IMG/VR virus record: IMGVR_UViG_3300032217_001005
Span: 1-35,098 of that record
Direction: 5' to 3' (one strand)
Origin: a virus
Length of the DNA stretch: 35,098 bases
The notes below the pieces were generated by a model, which worked only from the letters and a program-made list of their open reading frames with translations, did not search any database and had not been told where the DNA came from. Made by a program: the position numbers and the translations under genes. The stretch's first letter is position 1. Each line of letters opens with the position of its first letter. Positions 412 to 30,742 of this stretch are shown here, one piece after another.

Positions 412-443
412 TTGTGATAATTCCTATCCGGGTGTATAATACC
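412..443 (+). promoter_or_regulatory. Promoter-like element ahead of the rightward operon (GTGTATAAT)
   Basis: TTGTGA at 412-417 and TATAAT at 435-440 are spaced by 17 bp, a reasonable sigma-70 promoter. The -10 box sits inside GTGTATAATACC (432-443), which shares GTGTATA with four other intergenic sites in this window proposed as late promoters. Predicted transcription begins near 447, right at the AGGAG ribosome binding site, giving a leader of roughly 13 nt. Confidence 0.6.
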
Positions 444-459
444 ATGAGGAGATTCTAAT

Positions 460-624
460 ATGAATGAAAAGAAACAATTAGATTGTGAATTGCATTGTAA
501 AGCTACAGCCGAAGTCAAGCGATCCGTCATGGTGGACTTGGAACAGCCAGATGTTCCAATGATAGAATTACTAAAGGAACTTGAGGACGATGAAGCTAAA
601 GACAACACCAATTCAGATTCTTGA
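460..624 (+). CDS. Small acidic hypothetical protein, 54 aa
   Basis: ATG at 460 follows a clear AGGAG (447-451) with 8 nt spacing, and the frame runs 54 codons to TGA at 622-624. The protein starts MNEKKQLDCELHCKATAEVK and has an acidic, helix-prone C-terminal half (MIELLKELEDDEAKD). It is the first gene of the rightward operon and overlaps the next start by 35 bases, suggesting translational coupling. Two cysteines flank a short Glu-Leu-His segment, too little to call a metal site. No family is recognised. Confidence that it is a gene rests on the ribosome binding site and the promoter position. Confidence 0.65.
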   Translation: MNEKKQLDCELHCKATAEVKRSVMVDLEQPDVPMIELLKELEDDEAKDNTNSDS

Positions 625-1363
625 ACGTGGACTTCCCACAGAAAACTCTTGCGACATATTCTTATCTGGCACTGAACAGGTATGTGATTATTTTCCAGAG
701 CTTCGTTATCAAAAAAACCCCCCTTGCTCTACTAATAATAGCTTTTTAGTAGCTTTTGGATTAGATAGCAAGTTTTATTACAGGCTTGAAAAGTATAATA
801 AACGCAAGCTAATTGACTTAGAGATAGGTATAGGCCACCTCTTTCAAGAAGCCCCCAACATTATTCTTCTTAAACGATCTCAGCCCCTGCTATACAAGCA
901 CGGTGATGAACAGATTGGCCCCATTGCAAGACCAGTACATGCTTTTGCTTGTCACGACCCAGATGATTACTTAGTTGTTCAATCTTATAGCGCCTACTCT
1001 CTTCCAGAATTATTAGTTGATCCACACTCACTAATAGTTTCTATTCCAGATAACCCCCTCAATATTGTTAACTTAGATGAAAATTCCGTTATTGGAAGAC
1101 TTGATGGTAATGTTACCTCCCTTTCTATTTTAGATATATGCAACAAAGCCACTGAATTACTGATTGGCTATAGCAAACAAATTATCTTATCATGCTCTCA
1201 GTTAGACGTTAAGAAGTTGAAAACTAAAATCTTACAGTTAACCCCAAGTAAACCAGACCAAGCAAAAAAAGGCAGCATCATTTATAATGAAGAACACGAC
1301 ACCATTCAATACTTCGACGGATCTCGTTGGCGAACATTATTATGGAGATTCGAAGACGAATGA
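590..1363 (+). CDS. Putative virion structural protein with fibre-type C-terminal motif
   Basis: I chose ATG at 590 (257 aa; starts MKLKTTPIQILERGL). A TTG nine bases upstream is also in frame but has no good ribosome binding site, whereas AAGGA at 574-578 lies 11 nt before 590. The C-terminus carries the pattern KGSIIYN...IQYFDGSRWRTL, close to the 'GTIVYxxxTxxFxxYNGSxW' motif that ends or punctuates many phage fibre and appendage proteins. The remaining 220 residues match no domain I know. Its stop overlaps the next start (ATGA), so it is co-expressed with the sigma factor. Assignment as structural is inferred from this one motif. Confidence 0.55.
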   Translation: MKLKTTPIQILERGLPTENSCDIFLSGTEQVCDYFPELRYQKNPPCSTNNSFLVAFGLDSKFYYRLEKYNKRKLIDLEIGIGHLFQEAPNIILLKRSQPLLYKHGDEQIGPIARPVHAFACHDPDDYLVVQSYSAYSLPELLVDPHSLIVSIPDNPLNIVNLDENSVIGRLDGNVTSLSILDICNKATELLIGYSKQIILSCSQLDVKKLKTKILQLTPSKPDQAKKGSIIYNEEHDTIQYFDGSRWRTLLWRFEDE

Positions 1364-1854
1364 AGATACCAAAAAATATGTCCGAATCAGAAGTTATGCA
1401 AAAGATATTATTAGTAGTAGATCGTATTGCCCCCAAGTATACCTTTAATGGCTATGAGGTTGATGATATAAAGCAAGAAGCTTATATTATATGCATGGAT
1501 GCTCTTGATCGTTATGACGAGGCCCGCCCCCTTGAAAATTTCTTATCAGTCAATCTATCTAATCGACTCAAGAATTTCGTCCGCGACAACTATTTTACCA
1601 AGAATGATCTAGAAAAGAAAAAGATCTTAAACCCTTCACAATTATCTTATGATGACTGTCTTGAGTCTGAAGACCACAACGTAGATATAAATATAGATGT
1701 GTCGCACATGAATAAGATTATAGATCAACACCTCCCGTCAAAATGCCGCTCAGACTATTTAAAAATACTCAGTGATGTTTACGTACCAAAGAAACGTAAA
1801 GCTGAAATTATCTCACTTATCAAGAATATAATGAAAGACCACGGCCATGCGTAA
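1360..1854 (+). CDS. T4 gp55-like late sigma factor
   Basis: A protein of 164 aa, starting MKIPKNMSESEVMQ at an ATG that overlaps the previous stop as ATGA; an in-frame ATG at 1342 is an alternative. Residues 28-76 resemble sigma region 2: a DDIKQEAYIICMDALDRYD helix, then a PLENFLSVNLSNRLKNFVRD helix, comparable to the core-binding and -10-recognition segment of T4 gp55. Length is close to gp55 (about 185 aa), and I see no clear region 4, also as in gp55. Such proteins direct host RNA polymerase to late promoters that have only a -10-type box. Gene location at the head of the packaging and capsid block fits a late-transcription role. The family call is from motif resemblance and is moderately secure. 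Confidence 0.7.
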   Translation: MKIPKNMSESEVMQKILLVVDRIAPKYTFNGYEVDDIKQEAYIICMDALDRYDEARPLENFLSVNLSNRLKNFVRDNYFTKNDLEKKKILNPSQLSYDDCLESEDHNVDINIDVSHMNKIIDQHLPSKCRSDYLKILSDVYVPKKRKAEIISLIKNIMKDHGHA

Positions 1855-2632
1855 GGGGCGAATTTCAAAAGAAGAAGAGAGATTTATATCTCGCAACGCC
1901 GAGTCTATGACCCTAGAGGATATAGCTAAATCTCTAGACCGGGATGTGGATTCTGTTGAACAATTCATGAAGAGGAAGCTTAAGCACGGACTTTCATTGG
2001 AAGAAGAAGCTGCTTTCTCTCTTGAAGATCGCCCGTACTGGATAGAGCTACAATCTCAATTCACTAACGACGAATTAGAATTGTTTAAATATCACTGGAG
2101 CCGCATTATCGCCCAGTTTAAAGATGACGTTTTCCCAACAGAAGAGTTGCAAGTTATAGACGTTATCAAGTTGGAACTATTGATGAATAGGTGTCTTAAA
2201 GGTAATAAAGATAATATTCAACAGATCTCTACCTACGAGACTATGGTCAAAGACGAGAGATCTAAAGATAAAGATGATCAAGACCTAGATTATATTATTA
2301 ACTTAGAAAGACAGATAGCTTCCCTGCGGGCTTCACAAGAAAGTCTTAACCGTGACTACCGCGAGCTTCAAACTAAGAAAGCTAGTATGTTGCGCGAGAT
2401 GAAGGGTACGCGAGAACAAAGAATTAAACGATTAGAAGATAGTAAACAGAGTTTTATTTCGTGGGTGGCTAATATGATGCAAGATCCAGAGACTATGAAG
2501 CAGTACGGAATTGAGATGGAGAAAATGAAGATGGCGATGTTAAAAGAGAAGGAACGCTTAAGCGCGTTCCATAAGTATGAGGACGGGCTGGTTGATCAAC
2601 CTTTTTTAACCCCAGACACTGTGCAGGAATAA
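1847..2632 (+). CDS. Putative terminase small subunit (HTH plus coiled coil)
   Basis: A 261-aa protein. Residues about 5-45 form a helix-turn-helix-like unit (SKEEERFISRNAESMTLEDI...VEQFMKRKL). Residues 62-115 hold a hydrophobic helical stretch (DRPYWIELQSQFTNDELELF), and about 148-205 a charged coiled coil (DYIINLERQIASL...). N-terminal DNA-binding HTH followed by an oligomerising helical region is the architecture of small terminase subunits, which bind the packaging site and feed DNA to the large subunit. The ATG at 1847 overlaps the sigma gene by 8 bases. The large subunit is 3.2 kb downstream, separated by accessory genes. It could instead be a DNA-binding regulator; I rate the terminase call as likely but not certain. 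Confidence 0.55.
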   Translation: MRKGRISKEEERFISRNAESMTLEDIAKSLDRDVDSVEQFMKRKLKHGLSLEEEAAFSLEDRPYWIELQSQFTNDELELFKYHWSRIIAQFKDDVFPTEELQVIDVIKLELLMNRCLKGNKDNIQQISTYETMVKDERSKDKDDQDLDYIINLERQIASLRASQESLNRDYRELQTKKASMLREMKGTREQRIKRLEDSKQSFISWVANMMQDPETMKQYGIEMEKMKMAMLKEKERLSAFHKYEDGLVDQPFLTPDTVQE

Positions 2633-2633
2633 T

Positions 2634-3173
2634 ATGAAAGCATACTCACAAATTGACGGCTGGTTTAATCATGAAGATGTATATAGGTTTTTAGTATCTC
2701 AATGTGCATTTTGTGGCACTTTTGTTGAGTGTGGGGCATGGCTTGGGAAAAGCTCTGCATACTTAGTTGACATATCTGAATATAAAAAATTAAACGTATG
2801 GATTGTTGATAGCTGGCAGGGATCATCTAATGAGTTAGATACTCATCACAAGCTTGTTAAACATTCAGATATATACGCATCATTTCTTTCTAACATGGGA
2901 AATAGAAAGTTTCAACACGTAAAAGCTTTATCTTGTGAAGCAAGTTTACAATTCGATAATGAATCTTGCGACGTTGTATTTATAGATATGGAACATACAT
3001 ATGAAGCTGTTAAAAACGACATAGAGCTATGGCTACCAAAAGTTAAGAGTGGTGGATATCTTGCTGGTCATGATTATCATACTAACTGGCAGGGTGTCAT
3101 ACAGGCTGTTGATGAAAAATTTGGAAATAATATTACGGTTGATAACACTTGCTGGATATATAGAAAGGAATAA
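2634..3173 (+). CDS. Class I SAM-dependent methyltransferase
   Basis: A 179-aa protein of the Methyltransf_24 type. SAM-binding motif I is at residues 30-44 (FVECGAWLGKSSAYL), a post-motif acidic residue at the end of strand 2 is D59 (VWIVDSW), and the strand-4 motif is at 112-124 (CDVVFIDMEHTYE), followed by LPKVKSGGYLAGHDYH at 134-149. These small enzymes usually methylate sugars or small acceptors and are common in nucleotide-sugar or surface-glycan clusters. It starts at an ATG two bases after the preceding stop, with AGGA at 2625-2628, and is followed after one base by the GDP-mannose dehydratase gene. The pairing suggests a methylated deoxysugar, but the acceptor is unknown. Confidence 0.8.
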   Translation: MKAYSQIDGWFNHEDVYRFLVSQCAFCGTFVECGAWLGKSSAYLVDISEYKKLNVWIVDSWQGSSNELDTHHKLVKHSDIYASFLSNMGNRKFQHVKALSCEASLQFDNESCDVVFIDMEHTYEAVKNDIELWLPKVKSGGYLAGHDYHTNWQGVIQAVDEKFGNNITVDNTCWIYRKE

Positions 3174-3174
3174 T

Positions 3175-4236: not shown

Positions 4237-4471
4237 ATTATCAATAGATCTATCTGACTTATACATAGAACTTAGGAGATTTGTTCTTAGAGAATATAGT
4301 CTACCCTTTTCACTAATTTTTATAGAAGCCAATGATCCAGATGATGCATGTTATATGGTGCTAATTAAATTAATGAAACTACTTATGGATCAAGATCCAT
4401 CGCTAGAAACTAGAATCTTATGCAAAAAAATCAAAAAACACATGAGAATAGATAAAATAGCACAATTATGA
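4223..4471 (+). CDS. Hypothetical protein, 82 aa
   Basis: Starts at ATG 4223 (MRNFRLSIDLSDLYIELRRF), overlapping the dehydratase stop by 14 bases; GGAA lies immediately upstream. A TTG nine bases earlier is in frame but less likely. The protein is helix-rich, alternating hydrophobic and charged residues, with a basic C-terminus (CKKIKKHMRIDK). Its stop overlaps the HNH start (ATGA), so it sits in one tightly coupled unit with the nucleases. I recognise no family and assign no function. Confidence 0.6.
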   Translation: MRNFRLSIDLSDLYIELRRFVLREYSLPFSLIFIEANDPDDACYMVLIKLMKLLMDQDPSLETRILCKKIKKHMRIDKIAQL

Positions 4472-4728
4472 AAAGGAACTATAATGATGAAGCGTACACT
4501 CAATGGCGCAAAGACGTACTAAAAAGAGATGGGAAAAAATGTAAAATGCCGGGATGTAAGTCTAGAACTAGTTTACAAGTTCACCACATACAAAAATGGT
4601 CAACAGCCAGCGCGCTAAGATATGACCTATCTAACGGGATTACTTTATGTAGAAAATGTCATGATTCTATTAAAGGTCAAGAAAATCATTATGTTCATGT
4701 ATTCAAACTAATATTGGATAACTTATGA
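4468..4728 (+). CDS. HNH endonuclease, small stand-alone
   Basis: An 86-aa protein with a complete zinc-supported HNH fold: C25-x4-C30 (CKMPGC), the HH pair at 39-40 (LQVHHIQKW), N56 (LSNGITLC), then C61-x2-C64-H65 (CRKCH). Such small HNH proteins encoded beside terminase genes assist DNA cleavage during packaging in some phages (HK97-type systems); others are homing endonucleases. Coupling by ATGA overlaps to both neighbours, lack of an intron, and position in the packaging block favour a resident packaging or repair role over a mobile element. It is preceded by a short unknown and followed by an ERCC4-type nuclease. Confidence 0.85.
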   Translation: MKRNYNDEAYTQWRKDVLKRDGKKCKMPGCKSRTSLQVHHIQKWSTASALRYDLSNGITLCRKCHDSIKGQENHYVHVFKLILDNL

Positions 4729-5219
4729 GTGAAACTAAAAAATTTATGGTCATCAAAGATACCCGTGAACAAGACGGATATTACTTTAAGGACTATAATA
4801 CTTGTGGCGGGATGATTGAGCGAAAGCTTGATACCGGGGATTATTCCATAGAGGGATTAGAAGATAAAATATGCATAGAACGCAAGGGCTGCGTAGAAGA
4901 GTTAGCTACAAATCTAGGTCAAAAGAAATACGCCTTCCTAGACGAAATAGAGCGCATGAAACCATTCCCACACAAATTTCTAGTTCTAGAATTTACATTC
5001 GAAGAATTAGCAAAATTCCCAGAAGAAACTAGGATACCATTAAAAAACAAAGCCTCAGTCAAAATCACGGGCAAGTATATGATGAAATGCTTGTTCGAAT
5101 TCGCATTATATAACAACGTACAGGTCATTTTCTGTGGAAATAAATACAACGGATTCTTGGCTGTTAGTAGCATTCTTAAGCGAGTTCATGAAATGTACAC
5201 AACTGGAAGGAAAACTTAA
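4725..5219 (+). CDS. ERCC4/XPF-type nuclease domain protein
   Basis: A 164-aa protein consisting of little more than one ERCC4 nuclease domain. Residues 10-16 give IKDTREQ, 35-41 LDTGDYS, and 51-60 IERKGCVEEL, matching the ERCC4 pattern D...GD...ERKxxxD, with Glu in place of the usual final Asp. Members cut branched or flapped DNA. Archaeal and eukaryotic relatives add an HhH2 domain, which is absent here. The ATGA overlap with the HNH gene and position before terminase suggest a part in resolving replication intermediates before or during packaging. The acid substitution in the last motif is conservative and probably tolerated. Confidence 0.8.
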   Translation: MSETKKFMVIKDTREQDGYYFKDYNTCGGMIERKLDTGDYSIEGLEDKICIERKGCVEELATNLGQKKYAFLDEIERMKPFPHKFLVLEFTFEELAKFPEETRIPLKNKASVKITGKYMMKCLFEFALYNNVQVIFCGNKYNGFLAVSSILKRVHEMYTTGRKT

Positions 5220-5859: not shown

Positions 5860-7849
5860 AGCAAAGCTAAAGAAGATAGACGAAGCTTGGCTTGGGTTAG
5901 ATTCTGTAGATACAGATTTATTTAATCCAATGTGTATTTTGCGACCAAGCGAAGATGACTTTCATTTAAAGCTCGCTTGGCTTATGACTAGGCCAGAGTA
6001 TCTATCGTTTTTTTGTCATCACATCTTAAACGTTCAGCTACTACCATCTCAGGCATTAGTGCTAGATGAAGTTTGGAATAGAAAATTTCCAATGCTTATT
6101 GCTAGTCGAGGATTTGGTAAATCTTTTATGCTATCTTTATATGCAATGTTAAGAGGTTTAGTTTTACCACGACGCAAAATTGTAGTTGTCGGTGCAGCAT
6201 TTAGACAGTCTAAGGTGCTTTTTGAATACATGGAAACTATTTGGCGCAACTCTCCAATGTTAAGAGATATGTGTGATTCCGATAGTGGGCCAAGAAGAGA
6301 TACAGATAGATGTGTAATGAGGCTTAATGAAAGCACCATTACATGCTTACCACTAGGCGACGGTCAAAAAATTAGAGGTCAAAGAGCCAATGATATTATC
6401 AGCGATGAGTTTGCTTCTATTCCTAGAGATATTTTTGAAAATGTTGTTGCTGGTTTCGCCGCAGTTAGTGCTGATCCAGTGGCGAATGTTAAACGCCTTG
6501 CTGCAAAACAAAAAGCAGAAGAGCTAGGTATTATAATAGAAGATGAGAATGTGTCTTCAACACAATCTAAAGATAACCAAATTGTATTATCTGGAACTGC
6601 ATATTATGATTTTAATCATTTTGCAACATATTGGAAAAAGTGGAAAGCCATCATTAAGAGCCAAGGTAATCCTGCTAAACTAAGAGAAGTGTTTGGTGGA
6701 GAAGATTATCCAGAAACGTTCGATTGGACACAGTATTCAATCATACGTATGCCATATGAGTTATTACCAAAGGGCTTCATGGACGCTGACCAAGTTGCAA
6801 GATCAAAAGCCACTGTTCATACTGGTATTTATCAAATGGAATATGGCGCATGTTTCACAAGAGACAGTCAGGGGTTCTTTAAGAGATCATTAATTGAGTC
6901 CTGTGTTATCTCTCAAGAGAATGAGATCAAAGACAGTAAAGGTACTCCAATTCATTTTGAGGCTAACTTGATTGGAGATGTAAATAAAAAATACATCTTT
7001 GGTGTTGACCCAGCTTCAGAAGTAGATAATTTTAGTATCGTGGTTCTAGAAGTCAATCCAGACCATAGAAGAATTGTTCATTGTTGGACTACAACTAGAT
7101 CAGAACATAAAGAAAAAGTCAAAAAGGGTTATTCCAATGAAACCGACTTCTATTCTTATTGCGCAAGAAAAATTAGAGATTTAATGTTGCTATACCCATG
7201 TGTACATATCGCTATTGATGCTCAAGGTGGCGGCGTTGCCGTAACAGAATCTTTGCACGATCAAGATAAAATAAAGCCGGGAGAGCTTCCCATGTGGCCT
7301 ACAATTGATGATGATAAACCAAAAGATACTGACGGCGAACGCGGTTTACATATCATAGAGATGTGTCAATTTGCCAAGTACGAATGGTTATCAGAAGCAA
7401 ACCACGGAATGAGAAAAGACTTTGAAGACAAAGTTTTATTATTTCCATTCTTTGACGCTGTAAGCCTAGGTCTATCTACCGCACAGGATGATATTAAACA
7501 CAGAATGTTTGACACATTGGAAGAGTGCGTAATGGATATTGAAGAATTAAAAGACGAACTTTCTATGATACAAATGACTCAGACAAATAATGGACGAGAT
7601 CGTTGGGACACACCAGAGGTTGTTGTTGGCACTGGCAAAAAGAGCAAGATGCGTAAAGACCGTTATTCCGCACTATTAATGGCTAATATGGCCGCTAGAG
7701 TGTTACAGAGAACTCCAGAACAAGAAGCTTACAACTTCTATGGTGGATTCGCAACTGGGCGCGGCGGTGGAGATAAGCCATCCTACGAAAATGAAAAACT
7801 TTACACTGGACCAAGCTGGTTTGCAGATCAAATGAAAGATGTGTATTAG
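5852..7849 (+). CDS. Terminase large subunit
   Basis: A 665-aa packaging motor. The N-terminal ATPase has a Walker A at about residues 84-91 (ASRGFGKS) and a Walker B at about 182-186 (IISDE). The C-terminal RNase H-fold nuclease shows its metal-binding acids at about D386 (FGVDPASE), D456 (IAIDAQGGG) and probably D604 (KDRYSALL). There is an insertion of roughly 50 residues with a Lys/Glu-rich helix after the Walker B region. It pumps DNA into the prohead through the portal and cuts the concatemer. The start overlaps the protease gene by 8 bases. The last codons overlap a GTGTATTAG sequence resembling the proposed late promoter motif ahead of portal. Confidence 0.95.
   Translation: MSEAKLKKIDEAWLGLDSVDTDLFNPMCILRPSEDDFHLKLAWLMTRPEYLSFFCHHILNVQLLPSQALVLDEVWNRKFPMLIASRGFGKSFMLSLYAMLRGLVLPRRKIVVVGAAFRQSKVLFEYMETIWRNSPMLRDMCDSDSGPRRDTDRCVMRLNESTITCLPLGDGQKIRGQRANDIISDEFASIPRDIFENVVAGFAAVSADPVANVKRLAAKQKAEELGIIIEDENVSSTQSKDNQIVLSGTAYYDFNHFATYWKKWKAIIKSQGNPAKLREVFGGEDYPETFDWTQYSIIRMPYELLPKGFMDADQVARSKATVHTGIYQMEYGACFTRDSQGFFKRSLIESCVISQENEIKDSKGTPIHFEANLIGDVNKKYIFGVDPASEVDNFSIVVLEVNPDHRRIVHCWTTTRSEHKEKVKKGYSNETDFYSYCARKIRDLMLLYPCVHIAIDAQGGGVAVTESLHDQDKIKPGELPMWPTIDDDKPKDTDGERGLHIIEMCQFAKYEWLSEANHGMRKDFEDKVLLFPFFDAVSLGLSTAQDDIKHRMFDTLEECVMDIEELKDELSMIQMTQTNNGRDRWDTPEVVVGTGKKSKMRKDRYSALLMANMAARVLQRTPEQEAYNFYGGFATGRGGGDKPSYENEKLYTGPSWFADQMKDVY
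7841..7849 (+). promoter_or_regulatory. Variant late-promoter-like motif GTGTATTAG ahead of portal
   Basis: GTGTATTAG at the very end of the terminase gene matches six of seven positions of the GTGTATA motif. It lies 51 bases before the portal start, as in two exact copies elsewhere (52 and 53 bases before their genes). It also encodes the last terminase residues and stop, so the match may be coincidental. Confidence 0.3.
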
Positions 7850-7856
7850 TATTTAG

Positions 7857-7880
7857 ACAATCCAATTAACAATCCAATTA
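7857..7880. repeat. Perfect 12-bp tandem duplication
   Basis: ACAATCCAATTA occurs twice head to tail at 7857-7868 and 7869-7880 in the 42-bp gap between terminase and portal. It would lie in the portal mRNA leader. It may be a binding site or a recent slippage duplication. Confidence 0.7.
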
Positions 7881-9973: not shown

Positions 9974-9995
9974 AAACACACTTATTTCTGATTTT

Positions 9996-10005
9996 GTGTA
10001 TATTG
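9996..10005 (+). promoter_or_regulatory. Candidate late promoter GTGTATATTG
   Basis: An exact GTGTATA at 9996-10002 in the 48-bp gap between portal and the protease-scaffold gene. If TATATT (9999-10004) is the -10 element, transcription would start near 10011, just at the AGAGG ribosome binding site. It has no convincing -35 box, as expected for a gp55-type promoter. Confidence 0.5.
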
Positions 10006-10021
10006 TTTTGAGAGGAAATAT

Positions 10022-12993: not shown

Positions 12994-13023
12994 AAGCTAT
13001 ATATTTAGCTTAATCGATTAAGC
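12994..13023. repeat. Overlapping hairpin and 16-bp perfect palindrome after the capsid gene
   Basis: AAGCTA (12994-12999) pairs with TAGCTT (13006-13011). The next element, GCTTAATCGATTAAGC at 13008-13023, is a perfect 16-bp palindrome and shares bases with both the first hairpin and the left arm of the terminator. The three structures are mutually exclusive. This may be a protein site or part of an RNA processing or anti-termination signal. Confidence 0.6.
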
Positions 13024-13052
13024 CACCCTCGTTTACTTGGGGGTGGCTTTTT
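13020..13052 (+). terminator. Strong intrinsic terminator after the major capsid gene
   Basis: AAGCCACCC (13020-13028) pairs perfectly with GGGTGGCTT (13041-13049) around a 12-nt loop, running directly into five T (13048-13052). It ends the head transcript. Confidence 0.93.
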
Positions 13053-13053
13053 C

Positions 13054-13064
13054 GTGTATATACC
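13054..13064 (+). promoter_or_regulatory. Candidate late promoter GTGTATATACC
   Basis: An exact GTGTATA two bases after the capsid terminator's T run, 52 bases ahead of the next gene. A promoter is needed here because the terminator would stop upstream transcription, so this is the best-placed copy of the motif. No clear -35 box is seen; the preceding sequence is the terminator itself. Confidence 0.55.
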
Positions 13065-13105
13065 AATAGATTGTAAGTTCAGGACTCATTTTTCAGGAGA
13101 CAAAT

Positions 13106-17185: not shown

Positions 17186-17935
17186 ATGAATGAAGGCTGT
17201 TTTATCAATGAAGATTGTCAAAGGCCAAAATTAGCTGGCAAAAAACATGATCCACTACTAGATGTTCCAACAAGACCATATTTAGATTTACCCACTCAGA
17301 CGGCATCAACAACCACCACGACCACAACAACGACCATTACTCCATATGATCCAGAACTTCTTGATCTTATTGTAATTCCAGTGAGTGGTAAAGCTTGCCC
17401 AATCATTTTAGTTCCACAAACAACTACAACTACCACTACAACTATTAATCCATTATATGTTCTAGGAGGATTAAAGGGCAAATTTAACACATCTAGCGAT
17501 TCAATGTCAACTATTAGCGAAGGAAATGTTGGCATAGATATACCAATATCTGGAGGTGTAGTTTTATCAAATATTAGCTATAACAATGCTGGAGATTATT
17601 ACAGCTTTCTTGCTTTTGGATATTTTAGGCCACCTGTAAATGGAATGTATACATTTTCCACAACTAGCGATGATGGTAGCGCAGTTTGGCTTGGTGTGCT
17701 AGCCAGCATAGATAATGGACGTAATACTACAAACGCATTAATTAACAACAACGTTACTGGCGTTCAAGGTGCTACCAAAAAAAGCGCTTCTATTTTACTC
17801 ACTGGAAATACATTTTATCCAATTAGAATTGTACATAGGGATGGAATACTTCAAGACGGTTTAACATTTTCTTGGAGCGGGCCAAACATAGAGGAAACAA
17901 CAGATTTAACTGAATATTTTTATTACGACAAATAA
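17186..17935 (+). CDS. Poly-Thr-linked protein with PA14/GLEYA-like domain
   Basis: A 249-aa protein starting four bases after the preceding stop. Two poly-threonine linkers lie at residues 42-50 and 79-86. They surround a short segment with PYDPELLDLIVIPVSGKACPI, reminiscent of a beta strand plug. Residues about 95-245 resemble a PA14/GLEYA carbohydrate-binding beta sandwich: YYSFLAFGYFRPPVNGMYTF, TTSDDGSAVWLG, and FYPIRIVHRDG...LTFSWSGP. Such domains bind glycans on adhesins and glycosidases. It heads a run of three proteins that share Thr linkers, likely parts of one appendage. The glycan-binding role is inferred from the family. Confidence 0.7.
   Translation: MNEGCFINEDCQRPKLAGKKHDPLLDVPTRPYLDLPTQTASTTTTTTTTTITPYDPELLDLIVIPVSGKACPIILVPQTTTTTTTTINPLYVLGGLKGKFNTSSDSMSTISEGNVGIDIPISGGVVLSNISYNNAGDYYSFLAFGYFRPPVNGMYTFSTTSDDGSAVWLGVLASIDNGRNTTNALINNNVTGVQGATKKSASILLTGNTFYPIRIVHRDGILQDGLTFSWSGPNIEETTDLTEYFYYDK
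17309..17335 (+). repeat. ACN codon tract, 9 Thr
   Basis: Nine consecutive Thr codons using ACA, ACC and ACG in mixed order. Mixed codons mean it is kept for the amino acid rather than being a pure microsatellite, though slippage is still possible. Confidence 0.9.
17420..17443 (+). repeat. ACN codon tract, 8 Thr
   Basis: Eight Thr codons (ACA, ACT, ACC). It separates the short N-terminal segment from the PA14/GLEYA-like domain. Confidence 0.9.
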
Positions 17936-17944
17936 GGACGGGTT

Positions 17945-20281
17945 ATGGCTAACGCAATAGGTTTAGCTGGATGGGAAATCGGCACCGCTAGAGGTAGAGT
18001 TGGAGCTTTTACAAAAGCTATCAATTCCCAAGATCTGAATAATGCTTTTTTTAAAAGGTTGTTCGTAAATACTGTACATTGGTCTGCTCGTAGAAACTCT
18101 AACGGTATTATTCTCTTAAGCTCTGAAAATACCACATTTGACAATTTAGTTGTTAGCGTTTTGAATTCCGCTGGATATAGCACATCTATATATGATAGAT
18201 GGTACAGCTTTAACGGCTATCCCGGAGGTCTTGGACAATTTGGATGTATGCTATTATTGCCAAGCTATAATCCATTTGGTGGCACTAAAATGCCAGATTC
18301 TGGACAATCCCAAATTCTTAACGAAGTCAGAAATATTGGCATGGGTCTGATTATATCAGAATGGTTCCATTATTTGCAGTCTTTACCTTCTAAAAGGTCT
18401 TTTTCTTTTACGAGTAATCCGCTTCTTGGGTTACACGAAATTTCTCCAATCACAATAGAAGACTATATAACATATTCAGATCCAGATAAAATTGTTTTTT
18501 CAAAAAACGTTGAACAAGATAGTATTTCATACAATATTCCTGAACAGTTCACTGTTAATGCTAAAGGTTATGCAGTTGGCTACGATGGAACAATCTCACA
18601 AATATCCACTGCTAAACCTAATGCTACTATATTTACGTTTACGGACGTTTTTGCTAGAGGCACAACTACTACCACTACTACAACAACAATAGCCCCTTCT
18701 AGAAATATTAAGTTAAAAGTTGCAGATATCAATCTTATAGATTACTGCGGCCCACATATAGTAACTATGAATGGTCCAAGCAAAGACTATTTTTTGCTAG
18801 AAAACAACGAGCTATTTCTCACAGAAAATACTGGCGCTACTGGTATATACAGCGTAACAATCTCTGTAGACGATTTATTTAATCCAAAAAGATTTAACAC
18901 AATACAAAAAACATACAATTTAGAGCTAGCAAGGTGCGACCCACCAATTTCTAAACCTCTTGATGGTTCCGGTCCAGCGTTTTCTTATCGTGGACTGTCT
19001 GTTAATGGAAACAACATGCAGTCACTATGGGGCCAACAAACTCCATACGGTATCATATCACCATTCACAGACTTTTCATTAAACGGAGAGGGTTCTCCAG
19101 ATGATCCTATTGTAGCATGGCTTGGTGGGCAGCACGGAGACACCAACGCTTTGTGGCTACAGATTAATAAATCTGGACTATTAAATTGGAATCTTAGGAT
19201 TTCATCTGAACCCAACCGTGACTACGCTTCTGTGTGGATAGTAAGTGCTAGCGGAGCTAAAGCAACACAACATACGCAACAATATAATGAAGAGTATAAA
19301 AACCTAACTAAATATAAATCCCTAGTTCCAACGGTCGATACAGACGCAAATGCCGTATTCAACATGTCGCAACTTACTGGATCGTCTACCAGCGTTGGAT
19401 CAAGAAACATAGACATACCACTAAATGACAAAATAAAAACATTTTTAGTAGTTACCTATGCTAAAGATGAAAAAAAGAGTATTGATGATGATAAGATATA
19501 TGCTCAATTTTTTATTGGAACCACAACAACCACTACTACAACTACCACAAGTACTACACCGACACCCACAACGTCAACAACAACTACAACTACAGAGCCA
19601 CCACCAAATTACACTTACACTTTAAATTTCATAGATAATATTGATTTTGGATCAATTTCTCCATTTTCATTAACTCTCGTATATCCTCGCGGTGGTTCCG
19701 CTATGGTTGGTTCTATATATTACTATGTAGATCAACCGGGATATTATTTTGCAAATCAACCAACTGTATTGAATGTTAATTCTCCAATTTCATTTTCGTA
19801 CTTTTTTAATAGGATTGATTTTTATCTCAACGGTATGCCAGAAAATGGTGGATCACAAACTATTATTATTCAAGGTGTAGCTGTTCCAACTACAACCACA
19901 ACAACAACCACAACAACCACAACGACAACATTAAGACCTTGCGATAATTTAATATACGTGCTATGCAAACAAACATTAAAATGCTTAAAATCTGGAGGTA
20001 GCTGTTTACCAAATTTAAGTGCTAGCACAAATGAAGTTGTTTTAGACTCTTGTTGTGATCTTACTCAAGCGGAAATGTTGGCGCTGTTTATATCTGAATA
20101 CGGCAACACTCCAAGCGTACAATTTGGAAGTAGATGCCCAAACATACCAACATCAGCATTTTCAGACTGTGCATCAGTAGACTCAGATGGAAATTGTCAA
20201 GACATCATTAATTATGAAACTTTAGATACTATGCAGTGTCGTTCATCGCAATTACCTCCAGATATTAACCCACTGCCATAA
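17945..20281 (+). CDS. Multidomain appendage protein with three poly-Thr linkers, 778 aa
   Basis: ATG 17945 follows AAGGA. Residues 1-235 form a globular domain with LSSENTTFDNLVVSVLNSAG, FGCMLLLPSYN and MPDSGQSQILNEVRNIGMGL, which reads like a class I glutamine-amidotransferase/ThuA-like alpha-beta fold; I see no Cys-His-Glu triad, so it may be non-enzymatic. Thr linkers follow at 240-248, 526-550 and 649-662. Between the first two is a cadherin-like repeat (DYFLLENNELFLTEN...YSVTISVDD) and a beta-rich domain of about 190 residues. Between the second and third is a short beta domain of about 95 residues. The C-terminal 115 residues are cysteine-rich (CDNLIYVLCKQTLKCL, DSCCDL, RCPNI, QCRSS), probably disulfide-bonded. 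Likely an adhesin or appendage component. Confidence 0.65.
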   Translation: MANAIGLAGWEIGTARGRVGAFTKAINSQDLNNAFFKRLFVNTVHWSARRNSNGIILLSSENTTFDNLVVSVLNSAGYSTSIYDRWYSFNGYPGGLGQFGCMLLLPSYNPFGGTKMPDSGQSQILNEVRNIGMGLIISEWFHYLQSLPSKRSFSFTSNPLLGLHEISPITIEDYITYSDPDKIVFSKNVEQDSISYNIPEQFTVNAKGYAVGYDGTISQISTAKPNATIFTFTDVFARGTTTTTTTTTIAPSRNIKLKVADINLIDYCGPHIVTMNGPSKDYFLLENNELFLTENTGATGIYSVTISVDDLFNPKRFNTIQKTYNLELARCDPPISKPLDGSGPAFSYRGLSVNGNNMQSLWGQQTPYGIISPFTDFSLNGEGSPDDPIVAWLGGQHGDTNALWLQINKSGLLNWNLRISSEPNRDYASVWIVSASGAKATQHTQQYNEEYKNLTKYKSLVPTVDTDANAVFNMSQLTGSSTSVGSRNIDIPLNDKIKTFLVVTYAKDEKKSIDDDKIYAQFFIGTTTTTTTTTTSTTPTPTTSTTTTTTEPPPNYTYTLNFIDNIDFGSISPFSLTLVYPRGGSAMVGSIYYYVDQPGYYFANQPTVLNVNSPISFSYFFNRIDFYLNGMPENGGSQTIIIQGVAVPTTTTTTTTTTTTTTLRPCDNLIYVLCKQTLKCLKSGGSCLPNLSASTNEVVLDSCCDLTQAEMLALFISEYGNTPSVQFGSRCPNIPTSAFSDCASVDSDGNCQDIINYETLDTMQCRSSQLPPDINPLP
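18662..18688 (+). repeat. ACN codon tract, 9 Thr
   Basis: Nine Thr codons joining the N-terminal alpha-beta domain to the cadherin-like region. Confidence 0.9.
19520..19594 (+). repeat. Long Thr/Ser/Pro codon tract (25 residues)
   Basis: A 25-codon stretch of Thr with a few Ser and Pro, the most mucin-like linker in the window. Confidence 0.9.
19889..19930 (+). repeat. ACN codon tract, 14 Thr
   Basis: Fourteen consecutive Thr codons, mostly ACA and ACC, the longest uninterrupted run. It tethers the cysteine-rich C-terminal domain. Confidence 0.92.
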
Positions 20282-20282
20282 A

Positions 20283-21827
20283 ATGACATCTGTACCAATA
20301 ACAACAACGGTTGCACCGCAATGTCCATGTGGATCATTGTACTTACCTAAAGGTAGAGCTTTTTCTACTTCTGGTTTATATGTTCATATAGCAAATTTAG
20401 AATTAGATTTATTACACTCTCAAGATATTTACTTGGAGTCTGGTGAAAAGTTTGTTACAGTTACGCCAATTATCAGAGATCACATAATACCAAATAAACT
20501 ATCTATATCTCACGCTTCTCCCATAATTATTAATAACGTCATACAGGTTGTTGTTAAAGATAAATTAAGCAAAGCCATACTAGGAACTCAATACATTGGA
20601 AAATACAATGAAGCAACCACAATAAACAGCATAATGGTAGATTTACATTCTAGCATTGATTTATATTATAGTGCTATCATTATTGAAATATATAGCTTGT
20701 GCGACAATGGATCTGATCCATGTTGTGATAAATTACCATCTGAGATAGATATAGTTGGGCCAAGATTACTATGTGTTCCTTTAGAGCAATACTACGTTCT
20801 TCCAACTACAACAACCACAACTACTCCAGAACCTTTCACAATAGAATTTTTAACTAGTCCAACAAATCAAATTGTAAATTCGACTACCACGGCGACATTT
20901 TCTTTTAGTGCAATCTCTCTATATGACAAAAATTTTACGTATTGGTGGGAAAAATCTGAAGACGGCGGGTTATCTTGGAATAAGGCGTCACGCTTGCTTA
21001 TTGGAAAATCAAGACAAGTACATACTCTTGTTGTTGCTTCATCATTACGAATGAATGGCTATAAATATAGGGTTGTAACTATTGATCCAAAGATTAAATA
21101 CAGCAATGTCGCAACACTATTTGTTATTCAGCCTACAACTACAACAGCTACTACCACAACATTTAACCCAGTTACCACCACCTTACCGCCTTGTGATTTA
21201 CAAATTTTTGGATCTAGTTCAAATACTACAACCACAAGCACAACAGGATCACCATCTTCAACAACTACCTCTACAACCACAACATTGTTGCCATCTTCTG
21301 CTTCGGCATACTATTTAGTTGTAAACTCTGCATATGGTGGTAAATATTGTGAAGATGGCACATACAATGGAAAACCAAAGTACAACAAAGTTGGAACATC
21401 CTTATATATTTACTATGTTGAGACAAATTGGAGAATAAATGATGTAGGTAACTTAGGCAACTTAAGCTCCAACGTTTACGGCTTTGTAATTAGCGGAAAC
21501 GCTCCACCCACTGGAATGAACTGGTTTGATCAGAATACTGGAAATGATTTAATTCTTGTGAATAATTTTTATACAACTGTTGGTCAATCTAGCTCATCAT
21601 ACACATTCTTACACTACGGAACAAATTTTAACGGAAAACCATTATACACAAGCCTAAATGAATATTGGCAAATGAGATACACTTCATATTGGGTAATAGA
21701 AGATATATCTGACTCAAGCCCAATTGAATTATGGGCTAATTATTCTAGTTCTAGCACACCACCATTAAACGGATGGGTTAGTTTTAGTTCTGCCCCTCCC
21801 ATCACTCTTATTGGGCCAAGTTGTTAA
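20283..21827 (+). CDS. Poly-Thr-linked appendage protein with Ig-like and twin NGKP modules, 514 aa
   Basis: ATG 20283 begins one base after the preceding stop, so translation is probably coupled. Residues 1-170 are a beta-rich domain with paired cysteines (CPCG; CDNGSDPCCDKLP). A Thr linker at 175-181 leads to an Ig-like domain (about 185-283; FTYWWEKSEDGGLSWN and YKYRVVTID). Two Thr/Ser-rich linkers follow (285-300, 315-334). The C-terminal 170 residues contain two copies of a module with YNGKPKY / FNGKPLY and a WRI / WVIED end, as in a W-ending module I have seen in diverse surface proteins. The architecture indicates a host- or glycan-binding appendage protein with the same linker style as the two genes upstream. 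Confidence 0.65.
   Translation: MTSVPITTTVAPQCPCGSLYLPKGRAFSTSGLYVHIANLELDLLHSQDIYLESGEKFVTVTPIIRDHIIPNKLSISHASPIIINNVIQVVVKDKLSKAILGTQYIGKYNEATTINSIMVDLHSSIDLYYSAIIIEIYSLCDNGSDPCCDKLPSEIDIVGPRLLCVPLEQYYVLPTTTTTTTPEPFTIEFLTSPTNQIVNSTTTATFSFSAISLYDKNFTYWWEKSEDGGLSWNKASRLLIGKSRQVHTLVVASSLRMNGYKYRVVTIDPKIKYSNVATLFVIQPTTTTATTTTFNPVTTTLPPCDLQIFGSSSNTTTTSTTGSPSSTTTSTTTTLLPSSASAYYLVVNSAYGGKYCEDGTYNGKPKYNKVGTSLYIYYVETNWRINDVGNLGNLSSNVYGFVISGNAPPTGMNWFDQNTGNDLILVNNFYTTVGQSSSSYTFLHYGTNFNGKPLYTSLNEYWQMRYTSYWVIEDISDSSPIELWANYSSSSTPPLNGWVSFSSAPPITLIGPSC
20805..20825 (+). repeat. ACN codon tract, 7 Thr
   Basis: Seven Thr codons then Pro-Glu-Pro, preceding the Ig-like domain. Confidence 0.88.
21135..21182 (+). 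repeat. Interrupted Thr codon tract
   Basis: Four Thr, Ala, four Thr, then Phe-Asn-Pro-Val and three more Thr, just after the Ig-like domain. Confidence 0.85.
21225..21284 (+). repeat. Thr/Ser-rich codon tract (20 residues)
   Basis: Twenty codons of Thr and Ser with one Gly and one Pro, preceding the C-terminal NGKP modules. Confidence 0.85.
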
Positions 21828-22299: not shown

Positions 22300-22977
22300 A
22301 TGTTAAAACTTGCTGATAGAGTAAAAGAAACATCTATAACCACTGGCGATGGTCAGTATATAAACCTAGCTGGAGCCTTTGGTGCTTCTCAGACGTTTTT
22401 AGATGGTATTGGCGATGGAAATTCTACATACTACACTATTGAAAATAATTCCAATTTTGAAGTTGGGCTAGGAACATATAGCGCATCTACGAATAGTTTG
22501 TCTAGAGACAGCATATTAGTTAGCTCTAATAACAATCAAAAAATAGATTTGCTTGGAGTATCTATAGTATTTTGCTCATATCCAGCATCTAAAGCTTTTT
22601 TGCTAAATGATCAAGGGCTAGCTACTGGTCCAGATGGCACATTTTCTGGTATTCAATTTCCAGACGGTAGTGTGCAAACTCAGGGTATAGTGCAAATAAA
22701 TCGTAATTATAGAACTATTACGAATAATGAACTTATCACGGACTCTGATGACATTGTTTTAGTGGATTGTTCTCTTTCAAACATAGAAGCCACTCTGCCA
22801 CACGCCACATTAATGTCTGGAAAAACAATAACATTTAAACTCAAAAATGGCCCCAATATACTCACAATTATTAGTCAATCTGAAGAATTAATTGATGGTT
22901 TACCAAGTTTTTCTATCTATCACAAAAATATGTCAATTTCTGTTTTTTCCGACAGCTTTGATTGGTACATAGTTTAG
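22300..22977 (+). CDS. Tail fibre-type structural protein, 225 aa
   Basis: Residues 1-105 match an N-terminal module common in phage fibre genes: LADRVKETSITTGDGQYINLAGA, FEVGLGTYSAST, LSRDSILVSSNNNQ and FCSYPASKAF. The same module begins the protein at 32812, so it is likely a common attachment unit. The middle has IQFPDGSVQTQG, the usual 'GIxFxDGTxQxTA' fibre hinge. The last 80 residues form a beta tip (LPHATLMSGKTITFKLK ... DWYIV) that recurs in the next two fibre genes. It is probably a short fibre or part of a heteromeric fibre. Confidence 0.75.
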   Translation: MLKLADRVKETSITTGDGQYINLAGAFGASQTFLDGIGDGNSTYYTIENNSNFEVGLGTYSASTNSLSRDSILVSSNNNQKIDLLGVSIVFCSYPASKAFLLNDQGLATGPDGTFSGIQFPDGSVQTQGIVQINRNYRTITNNELITDSDDIVLVDCSLSNIEATLPHATLMSGKTITFKLKNGPNILTIISQSEELIDGLPSFSIYHKNMSISVFSDSFDWYIV

Positions 22978-22988
22978 TGTATAAATTC
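22977..22988 (+). promoter_or_regulatory. Candidate late promoter GTGTATAAATTC
   Basis: An exact GTGTATA overlapping the stop of the preceding gene, 53 bases ahead of the next ATG. Its TATAAATT is a 7-of-8 match to the T4 late promoter box TATAAATA, the closest in the window. Confidence 0.55.
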
Positions 22989-23029
22989 ATGAAAGCAATT
23001 TAATAGCATCATATAACAGGGAGATTTAA

Positions 23030-27007: not shown

Positions 27008-27211
27008 ATGTCACTATCATATAATAATTCAATCTTAGCTCAAACTATTAGTGTAAGTGGTACTAATAATACCTCAGTTACTGGGGTTTTAACTGCTACT
27101 AGTGGTAATTTTACTAATAATCTTGCTATTGGGTCTAATAATTTGACACCAACCAAGACCCGAGATATAATCAATAGTTCAAATCTTTATTTATGGTCTA
27201 CATTTAGATAG
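27008..27211 (+). CDS. Small virion-like protein, 67 aa
   Basis: ATG 27008 follows AAGG (26998-27001). The sequence is Ser/Thr/Asn-rich and beta-prone (ISVSGTNNTSVTGVLTATSG) and resembles a piece of fibre repeat ending YLWSTFR. It lies among fibre genes and may be a short linking or capping unit. Family not recognised; a remnant of a longer fibre is possible. Confidence 0.6.
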   Translation: MSLSYNNSILAQTISVSGTNNTSVTGVLTATSGNFTNNLAIGSNNLTPTKTRDIINSSNLYLWSTFR

Positions 27212-27220
27212 GAGTTTATC

Positions 27221-27604
27221 ATGGCAGCTAGTCCAGTATTCGCAGTAACGCCCATAATAGGCATGAATCAAGTAAGCGTAGCAAATACCAATAGAGACGG
27301 AACAACAGGAACTTATGTTAATTTAGTTACTGCCGCCGCTAGCGGAACCAGAATAGCAGAAATCGTCACGCAAGCGACGGTCACAACTACTGCTGGTATG
27401 GTCAGGCTTTTTTTAACAGATGGCTCAACGACTAGAATGTTTGATGAAATAGCAATATCCGCTGCTACTGTTTCTGCTAGCGTTAAAGGAAATAGGGTTA
27501 GTACATTATATACTAACGTTGTTATTCCTAGCGGATGGAGTATTAAAGCTTCCACAAATAATGCTGAAGCTATAAACGTATTTGCACTAGGAGCAGATTT
27601 GTGA
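27221..27604 (+). CDS. Conserved virion protein, 127 aa
   Basis: ATG 27221, after AGGAG, opens MAASPVFAVTPIIGMNQV. Further segments VANTNRDGTTGTYVNLVTAA, TTTAGMVRLFLTDGSTTRMF and IPSGWSIKASTNNAEAINVF match a recurrent small phage structural protein, probably a single beta sandwich. Its stop overlaps the GTG start of the BspA/FN3 adhesin, so the two are likely made together. It may be a fibre base or capsid-associated unit. Function is inferred from context only. Confidence 0.7.
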   Translation: MAASPVFAVTPIIGMNQVSVANTNRDGTTGTYVNLVTAAASGTRIAEIVTQATVTTTAGMVRLFLTDGSTTRMFDEIAISAATVSASVKGNRVSTLYTNVVIPSGWSIKASTNNAEAINVFALGADL

Positions 27605-29757
27605 ATAATGGTATTTTTGGTGGTGATTTTCCTCCAAGTCGTTCATTAATAAATAATGGAGTGCTAAATACTCCGTCTAATGTAATTCCAACAACGTATG
27701 GACAAGGAGCAAATAGAGGGGTCGGTATTAATTATGACAACTTAGTGTTTTTATTTAACACTGCATTAGAAGCTGATAATATTGTAAGCTTTTCTTTTGG
27801 TGGAACTGTAAACTGTTTTGTAGATTGGGGTGACGGTGTTGTAGAAACTTTTAAAACCACTGGAACTAAAACTCACACGTATCCTAGCAAAGGCTTATAT
27901 ACTGTGCAGATAGGAGGAACACTATCTACTATATCTTTTGCGGCTATGACAGGTAGAGGAAAGCTAATTAGTTGTTTATCTTTTGGTAGTTTATCATTGT
28001 TGGTTTTATGTTCATTTAATGGTTGTACTAACCTTACTAGTGTTCCAAACCAAATCCCAATAACACTTACTAGCTTGGCTGGCATGTTTCAGGGATGTTC
28101 TAGATTCAACAGTCCCTCTGTAATAACTTGGGATACTAGCCGTATTACCGATATGAACTACGCTTTTGCTACACAAACTTCTTTCAATCAGCCTATTGGA
28201 GGATGGAATACTAGTAGAGTTACAAATATGGACAATATGTTTTTGCAAAGTTCTTTTAATCAGCCCATTGGTGGATGGAATACTAGTTCAGTCACAAATA
28301 TGGGCAATATGTTTTCACAGGCTCAAAATAATGGTTTTAATCAAGACATTGACGCTTGGGACGTTAGTAATGTTACTAATATGTCTCAAATGTTTTATAT
28401 CAATCCATATATGAATCGTAGTTTAAACTCTTGGAATACAAGCAGAGTAACAAGTATGAGCTTAATGTTTTACCAAGCTCAAGCATTTAATGGAAATATT
28501 GGTAATTGGAACACTAGTTCTGTCAATTATATGAATGATATGTTTTTTCAGGCTTTTACTTTTAATAAAGACATTAGTAATTGGAATTTTAAGGGCATTA
28601 ATGCTACTGCTAATTTAGATAGATTTATGTCATCAGCTACTGCATTTAGTACTACTAACTATAATGCTCTTCTTATATCCATGAATAATAACAAATCATC
28701 CGCTCCGTATAGATCAGATTTAAGGCCGGGGTTTTCCGCTACATATACTGCTAGTAGCGCAGCCGCTGCTGCGCGAGCAGCTTTAGTAACTTATGGCTGG
28801 ACCATTACAGATGGAGGAACAGTTAATGCCGTCCCAGATGCTCCAACATCAGTATCTGGAACCGCTGGAAATACTCAAGTATCTTTAACTTGGGTGGCAC
28901 CAACCTATAATAACGGAGCAGCAATAACGGACTATACAATACAATATAGTAGCAATTCAGGATCATCATGGTCCACATTTAGTCATGCCGCCTCAACTGC
29001 AACATCCATTACAGTTACGGGACTTACAAATAGTACAGCTTATATATTCAGAGTTGCTGCCGTAAACTCTGTAGGAACTGGATCTTATTCAGCTAACAGT
29101 AGCTCTGCTACGCCAGTGTTGGCATCTTTTACTCCAACCGCCGTGTTACTTACTAGTGGAACGTCATATACAGTTCCTACTGGAGCAACTAGCATGAAAG
29201 CTTGGGCTGTGGGAGCAGGAGGAAATGGATATCTTACAGGATCATTAGTATCTGGGGCTGGAGGATGTTCTTACAAAACATGGTCTGTTTCAGGCGGCAA
29301 CGCTGTTTCGTACTCTGTGGGTATAGTCCCAGCAACTGGTAATGGCGGGAGTACAACGGTCACATTCGGAGGGGTGACTATTACGGGGTCGGGCGGCGGG
29401 TCTACTGGTACCGGTGGAGCTTATTCTGGTGGGGATGGTGGAGCAAACGGTGGTGGTGGAGTCGTGTTCGGCGGTGGAAACGTAGCCGGTCAAGGCTCTG
29501 CTGGTGGGGCCGTAGGTGGAAACGGAACAAAACAATCATGCGGGCGACTTATATCCACAGATGTCAATGGATTGCTCTCGGCGGTCGCTCTCGCTGGAGG
29601 AAAAACGACAGAAGACTGCGGAACTGCGGCGGCATTCGGATCGGGTTCGTACAACGACAAGTTTACCAATAAAACTGCTGGCCTTGGTGGAGGATTTGCG
29701 ACAAGCTATGCCAACGCGGCGGCAGGAGGCGGGGCTGTAGTCCTGTATTTTACATGA
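27601..29757 (+). CDS. BspA-repeat / FN3 / glycine-rich adhesin, 718 aa
   Basis: GTG start at 27601 overlaps the previous stop (GTGA). A PKD-like strand with FVDWGDGVVETF lies around residues 73-84. Residues about 130-345 carry BspA-type (DUF285) repeats of 24-27 residues, such as FNQPIGGWNTSRVTNMDNMF. An FN3 domain spans about 411-506 (APTSVSGTAGNTQVSLTWVAP). From about 515 to the end is a glycine-rich domain (YTVPTGATSMKAWAVGAGGNG; GGGGVVFGGGN), reminiscent of glycine-rich adhesin tips such as the T4-type gp38 proteins of other phages. The DNA of the last 430 bp is GC-richer than the rest. Likely a receptor-binding protein. Confidence 0.75.
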   Translation: MNNGIFGGDFPPSRSLINNGVLNTPSNVIPTTYGQGANRGVGINYDNLVFLFNTALEADNIVSFSFGGTVNCFVDWGDGVVETFKTTGTKTHTYPSKGLYTVQIGGTLSTISFAAMTGRGKLISCLSFGSLSLLVLCSFNGCTNLTSVPNQIPITLTSLAGMFQGCSRFNSPSVITWDTSRITDMNYAFATQTSFNQPIGGWNTSRVTNMDNMFLQSSFNQPIGGWNTSSVTNMGNMFSQAQNNGFNQDIDAWDVSNVTNMSQMFYINPYMNRSLNSWNTSRVTSMSLMFYQAQAFNGNIGNWNTSSVNYMNDMFFQAFTFNKDISNWNFKGINATANLDRFMSSATAFSTTNYNALLISMNNNKSSAPYRSDLRPGFSATYTASSAAAAARAALVTYGWTITDGGTVNAVPDAPTSVSGTAGNTQVSLTWVAPTYNNGAAITDYTIQYSSNSGSSWSTFSHAASTATSITVTGLTNSTAYIFRVAAVNSVGTGSYSANSSSATPVLASFTPTAVLLTSGTSYTVPTGATSMKAWAVGAGGNGYLTGSLVSGAGGCSYKTWSVSGGNAVSYSVGIVPATGNGGSTTVTFGGVTITGSGGGSTGTGGAYSGGDGGANGGGGVVFGGGNVAGQGSAGGAVGGNGTKQSCGRLISTDVNGLLSAVALAGGKTTEDCGTAAAFGSGSYNDKFTNKTAGLGGGFATSYANAAAGGGAVVLYFT
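28183..28614 (+). repeat. BspA-type (DUF285) protein repeats, 72-81 bp units
   Basis: At least five units with pattern FNxxIxxWNTSxVTxMxxMFxQA. The first two (from 28183 and 28255) are 72 bp apart and nearly identical in DNA, suggesting recent duplication or homogenisation. The rest are more diverged. Confidence 0.85.
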
Positions 29758-30248
29758 GCGAAATTTTAAGATCACCTATTACCCATAACGCCGTTTTACT
29801 AATACCTCGCAGCGGCTCCCATTCTTTAGCGGTTGCAGCCATGCGCACTTTTTGGCCGGATATTGAAATAACTAATGAGGCTCACCCAGCGATATATTTT
29901 GGTTGCGAAGAATGGTGGGATGGTACCAATAAAAATATTGCAATTATTGTAAGAAATCCGATTGAGCGTTTTCGATCCATGTGCGCGCACAGACCAGATC
30001 GCACAATTAAAGAACAACTTGCTGATCCCATTTACGGCCCATTGCCAACTGGTAACTTTGTCTGCTATTTCCGTTTTGAAGATCAACTCAACGAAGCTGC
30101 TAAATGGCTTGGACTTCCTACTCCTTTACCGCAAGAAGATGCTACCGATCCCGCATCAAAACCCAACCTAACTTTAGAACAAGAATCTATTGTCAAGAAA
30201 ATTTATGCTGATGATATTGCCCTTTGGGAAAGTTTACAACAACAATGA
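29754..30248 (+). CDS. Small sulfotransferase-like protein
   Basis: A 164-aa protein whose ATG overlaps the adhesin stop (ATGA). Residues 17-25 (IPRSGSHSL) match the 5'-phosphosulfate-binding loop of PAPS-dependent sulfotransferases. R67 and S75 (VRNPIERFRSM) match the 3'-phosphate-binding Arg and Ser, with the correct spacing of eight. A YFRFEDQLNEAAKWLGLP segment matches the usual 'EDL...fLGL' end. It is shorter than most (about 250 aa), so an acceptor cap may be missing. The substrate may be a host glycan, lipid or virion residue; the tight coupling to the adhesin suggests a link to surface recognition. Confidence 0.7.
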   Translation: MSEILRSPITHNAVLLIPRSGSHSLAVAAMRTFWPDIEITNEAHPAIYFGCEEWWDGTNKNIAIIVRNPIERFRSMCAHRPDRTIKEQLADPIYGPLPTGNFVCYFRFEDQLNEAAKWLGLPTPLPQEDATDPASKPNLTLEQESIVKKIYADDIALWESLQQQ

Positions 30249-30263
30249 TAAAAAGGAAAACCT

Positions 30264-30728
30264 ATGAGTGCTGAAATTAAAAACCCAAATAGTGTCACAT
30301 ATTGGATTATTACAGATGGAATCGGTTACGCTGAAGGGCTAACCGGACCAGAGCAAACCACAACTGTTGGAAATGGATGGAGAATACACTGGGTAGGAAG
30401 CGACCACAGCGAGTACGTGAATGAGTGTAATAAAGTCAACTTACTACCAAGAGATATTGATGGCACAGCTTCGGTTTTAACTCAACCTTTTAGGGTTTCA
30501 GCCAGACAAATTAGATTATGGCTAGTTCAACATGGAATTGCTCTTACTCAAATAGATGATGCCATAAATAGCATAACAGATCCAAATACAAGAGAAGTTG
30601 TTAAAATAGAGTGGGAATTTGCTCCCTATGTTGAAAAAAGTCACCCGTGGCTAATTCCACTGGCAGAATCTTTGGGCTTAACTTTGGAACAAATAGACCA
30701 AGCTTTTACAGAAGCGTATTCCATATAA
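30264..30728 (+). CDS. Small conserved phage protein, 154 aa
   Basis: ATG 30264 after AAAAGGAAAA. The C-terminal half (QPFRVSARQIRLWLVQHG, VVKIEWEFAPYVEKSHP, LIPLAESLGLTLEQIDQAF) matches a small helical protein often encoded after tail fibre genes in phages. In this class the N-terminal part is variable. The function is unknown; a fibre accessory or assembly role is plausible. It marks the end of the long appendage block. Confidence 0.7.
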   Translation: MSAEIKNPNSVTYWIITDGIGYAEGLTGPEQTTTVGNGWRIHWVGSDHSEYVNECNKVNLLPRDIDGTASVLTQPFRVSARQIRLWLVQHGIALTQIDDAINSITDPNTREVVKIEWEFAPYVEKSHPWLIPLAESLGLTLEQIDQAFTEAYSI

Positions 30729-30730
30729 TG

Positions 30731-30742
30731 GTGTATAACTAA
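30731..30742 (+). promoter_or_regulatory. Candidate late promoter GTGTATAACTAA
   Basis: An exact GTGTATA two bases after the preceding stop and 33 bases before the next ATG (30764). TATAAC (30734-30739) would be the -10 box. Confidence 0.5.

Follow-up and report, generated by a model that had tools for sequence, protein, structure and literature searches.

The heptamer GTGTATA is very probably the core of a -10-type promoter that host RNA polymerase, carrying the phage sigma factor encoded at 1342-1854, uses to transcribe the structural genes of an uncultured phage, part of whose genome makes up the 35,098-nt stretch of DNA analyzed here (the window). The motif recurs in a consistent placement and with strict sequence specificity, and is conserved among relatives that also carry the sigma gene. 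Judged from sequence, GTGTATA promoters would be bound by this sigma factor and would act late. The original prediction of a late promoter related to that of phage T4 therefore survives as a candidate phage promoter, with a GTGTATA core ahead of structural genes and a conserved sigma gene nearby, and loses its kinship with T4.

All five exact plus-strand copies lie where they had been reported, at 432, 9996, 13054, 22977, and 30731, and their distances to the next start in the ORF list (28, 26, 52, 53, and 33 bases, respectively) fall within the claimed 26-53 bases. Each had been assigned to an intergenic gap, which is correct for all five except that the 22977 copy shares its first base with the end of a stop codon. 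The near copy GTGTATT is at 7841 as described, but it overlaps the final terminase codons instead of occupying a gap, and the impression that no exact copy falls inside a gene is contradicted by an antisense copy within a gene at 21643-21649. Counting the motif on both strands, as had been proposed, gives six copies against 6.29 expected; the total equals chance and was dropped as evidence. Placement is a different matter, because gaps make up 1.8% of positions yet hold five of five plus-strand copies (p = 1.8e-9), with the single antisense copy as the only other occurrence. GTGTATA is the most gap-enriched of all 7-mers (about 3e-5 once corrected for 16,384 words), and its gap bias exceeds that of ribosome-binding-site words.

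The same bias is found in relatives, whose genes were delimited by mechanical ORF calls. Across 80 of them, 83 of 127 plus-strand copies fall in gaps, as opposed to 1 of 33 reversed copies, and among held-out loci that were not used in motif discovery GTGTATA is the top-ranked 7-mer (79/93 in gaps versus 0/6 reversed). A substitution scan found GTGTATA 40-fold gap-enriched and its 21 single-base variants 0 to 5.9-fold; all seven bases matter, because every single change abolishes or strongly lowers the enrichment. Orthologous sites precede the same genes throughout the family, and since such sites share ancestry the p-values overstate the independent evidence; the held-out test and the codon-drift test described below are the least inflated by relatedness. 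In a far lineage, whose seed was a terminase sharing 52% identity with that of the window and whose contigs reach 230 kb, GTGTATA ranks sixth by gap enrichment, and AGTGTAT and GTGTATT are also high. The rule is not universal in that lineage, as the terminase-portal gap of L260, L268, and L272 contains only GTGTAC or GTGTAA-like words. No report of GTGTATA or GTGTATAAT as a phage promoter was found in the open-licence papers searched. GTGTATA also precedes a conserved gene (MSTTAAK...) carried by the opposite strand, which is presumed to be early or middle (G002:23380, G003:26402, and G005:4590), and the promoter class may include middle genes. High-scoring promoter matches within giant ORFs of three genomes, 173-189 bases ahead of the next called start (G003:81752, G004:66301, and G006:52531), possibly represent a conserved internal promoter.

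Alignment of 51 non-redundant sites gives the consensus TTTT-GTGTATAAT, extending in late sites to TTTT-GTGTATAAT-N4-TAGA as a single -10-type element, with a purine start signal at offsets 15-16 and no -35 element above shuffles in the late class. Among 12 non-redundant class D sites (those before the homologue of gene 13106), 7 have TAGA at precisely offset 13, as do 4 of 10 other sites. This spacing puts a purine about seven bases past the hexamer, where a start site is expected, and transcription would thus begin at the G or A of TAGA, approximately seven bases after the TATAAT-like hexamer.

Four plus-strand sites in the window fit this late pattern. The highest scoring, TTTTGTGTATATTGTTTTGAGA at 9992..10013 (PWM 21.6), precedes gene 10022, which occupies the prohead protease/scaffold position, and has an orthologous site in 50 listed rows, some of them repeats. 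The site TTTCGTGTATATACCAATAGAT at 13050..13071 (PWM 18.5, TAGA at offset 13) precedes gene 13106, has class D orthologues, and abuts the rho-independent terminator of the capsid gene (13020..13049, plus strand; a 12-pair stem and T-run). Its GTGTATA begins two bases past the T-run of that terminator, as had been noted, and the same T-run also serves as the promoter T-run; in relatives, almost every class D site is likewise preceded by the hairpin. Further downstream, TTTAGTGTATAAATTCATGAAA at 22973..22994 (PWM 16.2) lies ahead of gene 23030 and has orthologous sites in G005 and L048, and AATGGTGTATAACTAATTAGAG at 30727..30748 (PWM 15.6, TAGA at offset 13) lies ahead of genes 30764-31833, with counterparts before the homologue of gene 31312 in G003, G004, G006, and L061.

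The portal gene appears to have a promoter of the same type, GTGTATTAG-N4-TAGA (7841..7857, plus strand), that overlaps the last terminase codons and the stop codon. GTGTATT at 7841 is made up of the Val and Tyr codons and the opening base of the stop codon, so that its seventh base has to be T. For the penultimate (Val) codon, 56 of 56 relatives use GTG; by contrast, GTG accounts for 11.5% of Val codons overall and for just 20% in the next conserved Val column. Outside the coding part, offset 13 is T in 91% and offset 14 is A in 73%, the start-site pattern of the other promoters. In L068, L079, and L080 the terminase lacks GTGTAT, and a complete GTGTATA is found directly past the stop codon. 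The 29 distinct held-out loci repeat this arrangement: GTGTAT is absent from the terminase in 28 and GTGTATA is present just past the stop in all 29, the terminase Val codon having drifted to GTT, GTC, or isoleucine codons where GTGTAT is missing. No other single argument for a functional motif is as strong as this constraint on terminase codons together with the replacement copy. Just past the presumed portal start site, CAATCCAATTA occurs twice in direct orientation in the portal leader, at a distance of 12 bp (7858..7880, plus strand). In relatives, a similar pair is retained at a spacing of 10-12 bp, and TCCAATT shows gap enrichment equal to that of GTGTATA; the repeats could be a packaging site, an operator, or an RNA element.

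By its sequence, the 432 copy belongs to a different class from the late sites, one with a -35-like element. This plus-strand class A promoter of the sigma operon (412..440) reads TTGTGA-17-TATAAT with GTG before the hexamer, placing GTGTATA at 432-438. In 33 of 40 class A sites TATAAT is preceded at 17-18 bp by a TG element, versus 4 of 30 and 6 of 22 sites of the late classes; the sigma-operon class is the only one with the -35 element, and class A sites lack TAGA. A third kind of promoter, TTGACA-16-TATAAT (126..153, minus strand), matches the host type at 12 of 12 positions, fires leftward, and is a candidate early promoter. Of 39 relatives, 23 have perfect or near-perfect TTGACA-16/17-TATAAT promoters on the opposite strand, against 0.8 expected, and 1 has them on the plus strand; upstream of the sigma operon they are often in tandem. 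None of the 44 host-type promoters with a listed preceding triplet (46 distinct) has GTG before TATAAT.

The protein encoded at 1342-1854 (plus strand) is the probable reader of the motif. It matches Pfam Sigma70_r2 at 27.8 bits (cut-off 24), and PHROG sigma families are matched in 25 of 26 members. Nearly all of the 50 listed PDB matches in a fold search are bacterial sigma factors, at E-values of 0.03-0.3, with none reaching 0.001, and confidence in the predicted fold is moderate (pLDDT 77). Region 4 has no Pfam match; the model has three C-terminal helices, and the fold alignments cover whole sigma factors. The sigma gene is present in 10 of 10 near relatives and 10 of 10 far-lineage contigs tested, and tblastn against named phages returned only one weak fragment. 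We infer that this sigma factor reads GTGTATA because the two co-occur and a -35 element is missing. A gp55-like sigma gene had been announced at 1360; the gene does encode a sigma factor, but homology to gp55 was rejected (hhalign probability 2.8%, with only 27 aligned columns), as was homology to phiEco32 gp36 (probability 0.5%). Second, weak Sigma70_r2 matches at other places in some relatives (G002:23003-23101, G027:169406-169576, and G028:29080-29154) possibly mark another sigma-like factor.

Overlapping the sigma gene by eight bases is a gene for a protein with an HTH and a long coiled coil (1847..2632, plus strand). The D5-like regulator family phrog_323 is matched over the N-terminal HTH in 22 of 22 members, and fold searches return weak HK97 small-terminase matches (E 0.9-1.3), making the protein a candidate small terminase or accessory transcription factor. 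A split sigma factor with region 4 on this protein was considered and rejected, as the Pfam region 4 score is far under the cut-off and the fold search gave only the weak HK97 small-terminase matches.

The two classes of site and the opposite-strand host promoters suggest a cascade running from host-driven early genes through a hybrid sigma-operon promoter to virion genes under the phage sigma factor. We hypothesize that the perfect TTGACA-TATAAT host promoters would first drive the opposite-strand early genes, and that the hybrid promoter at 412-440, with its host-like -35 element and GTGTATAAT core, could let the sigma operon be started by the host enzyme and then sustain itself. The phage sigma factor would then open the promoters without a -35 element at 7841, 9996, 13054, 22977, and 30731, and host RNA polymerase carrying it would transcribe the structural genes from TTTT-GTGTATAAT-N4-TAGA.

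If the sites were instead host sigma-70 promoters of the ordinary kind, having a good -10 element but no -35, a phage sigma factor would be unnecessary. TATAAT does fall within the family consensus, and at a spacing of 17-18 bp the sigma-operon sites do have a -35-like element, but in the substitution scan changes to the preceding GTG are tolerated no better than changes to the hexamer. That GTG is not in the register of a TGn extended -10 element, is not found before the host-type promoters of the same genomes, and accompanies late sites whose -35 region does not rise above shuffles; we regard this explanation as unlikely. A smaller probability still attaches to a site for some other protein (an activator, repressor, or packaging factor) or for RNA processing in place of a promoter core. 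The HTH protein co-encoded with the sigma gene and the second conserved element, the CAATCCAATTA repeats adjoining one copy, would suit such a role, which we consider the least probable of all, since the motif is strictly oriented toward starts, is placed directly past a terminator, resembles TATAAT in composition, and has a start-site-like TAGA at fixed spacing. An RNA site would also leave the conserved upstream T-run unexplained.

The 22977 copy had been likened to the T4 late box. T4 late promoters (TATAAATA), served by gp55, gp33, and gp45, are single-element promoters of virion genes read by a small phage sigma factor. The present sites share that single element and the service of virion genes, the putative phage sigma factor is likewise small with a clear region 2, and TATAAATT does occur inside the 22977 copy. 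The likeness does not extend further: TATAAATA is at chance in the window (5 copies versus 5.0 expected, all within ORFs and none in gaps), the family consensus is GTGTATAAT, gp55 similarity is missing in the hhalign comparison, and the PHROG annotated as late sigma transcription factor is touched by only 1 of 26 members (E 0.009). No T4-like record is among the terminase matches listed. The proposed kinship of the 22977 copy was accordingly abandoned, and a gp55-like sigma factor acting with gp33 and a gp45-like clamp on TATAAATA-like boxes is very improbable here.

For the preferred reading, a phage sigma factor on -35-less promoters, the closest known case is gp36 of phiEco32, which would be alike in its working but is not of the same family by sequence. 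The middle and late promoters of phiEco32 (tAATGTAtA) are recognized by gp36, acting on host RNA polymerase, through a single -10-like element without a -35, with the start 6-8 bp downstream (PMC8948821). Both systems combine a phage sigma gene, putatively the reader here, with a -10-like element lacking a -35 before structural genes; both cores contain TGTATA, and the start-like TAGA of the present sites would lie at the same 6-8 bp distance. The present core is GTGTATAAT and not tAATGTAtA, however, and carries an extra TAGA start element and T-run; no phiEco32 relative is among the terminase matches listed. In phage 7-11, gp47 replaces the host sigma factor for late genes at GTAAtg-16-aCTA promoters (PMC8948821), which are bipartite with an upstream element, unlike the late sites described here. 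Late genes of phage K have a -10 element and no recognizable -35, with nothing conserved beyond the -10 reported (PMC11598898), whereas the present late consensus is sharp and extended.

Taken together, these features probably reflect an unrecognized and very widespread sigma/promoter system that sets the transcription program of uncultured aquatic phages forming a deep clade, contigs of 220-230 kb included. In one subgroup, part of the late promoter would be encoded by the final codons of the large terminase gene, and where drift has changed these codons a copy further downstream would take its place. Such a system would give a large phage family a transcription map open to testing, would allow late operons to be called from sequence alone, and would pair an orphan sigma factor with its likely promoter. 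It would also offer a clean natural example of an essential gene whose codon choice is constrained by a promoter, and the sharp consensus could serve to read the stage of phage expression in metatranscriptomes.

Terminase homologues number at least in the hundreds in IMG/VR. Among 50,697 records of named phages, all terminase matches listed are at most 28% identical, a DNA search with the head region found no match, and the searches made found no cultured member of the family. Near-complete relatives are approximately 130-170 kb long and carry the structural module on one strand and the rest largely on the opposite strand. Two terminase relatives (L198 and L199) lie on contigs that binning assigned to SAR202 and Flavobacteriales MAGs, and the hosts of these phages are uncertain because the binning of phage contigs is unreliable. 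Within the window, an HNH endonuclease gene followed by an ERCC4-type nuclease gene (4468-5219) adjoins a prohead-protease-like gene, GC skew is negative at 18-22 kb, and long homopolymeric threonine tracts run through the consecutive structural genes 17186, 17945, and 20283 (17296-21300).
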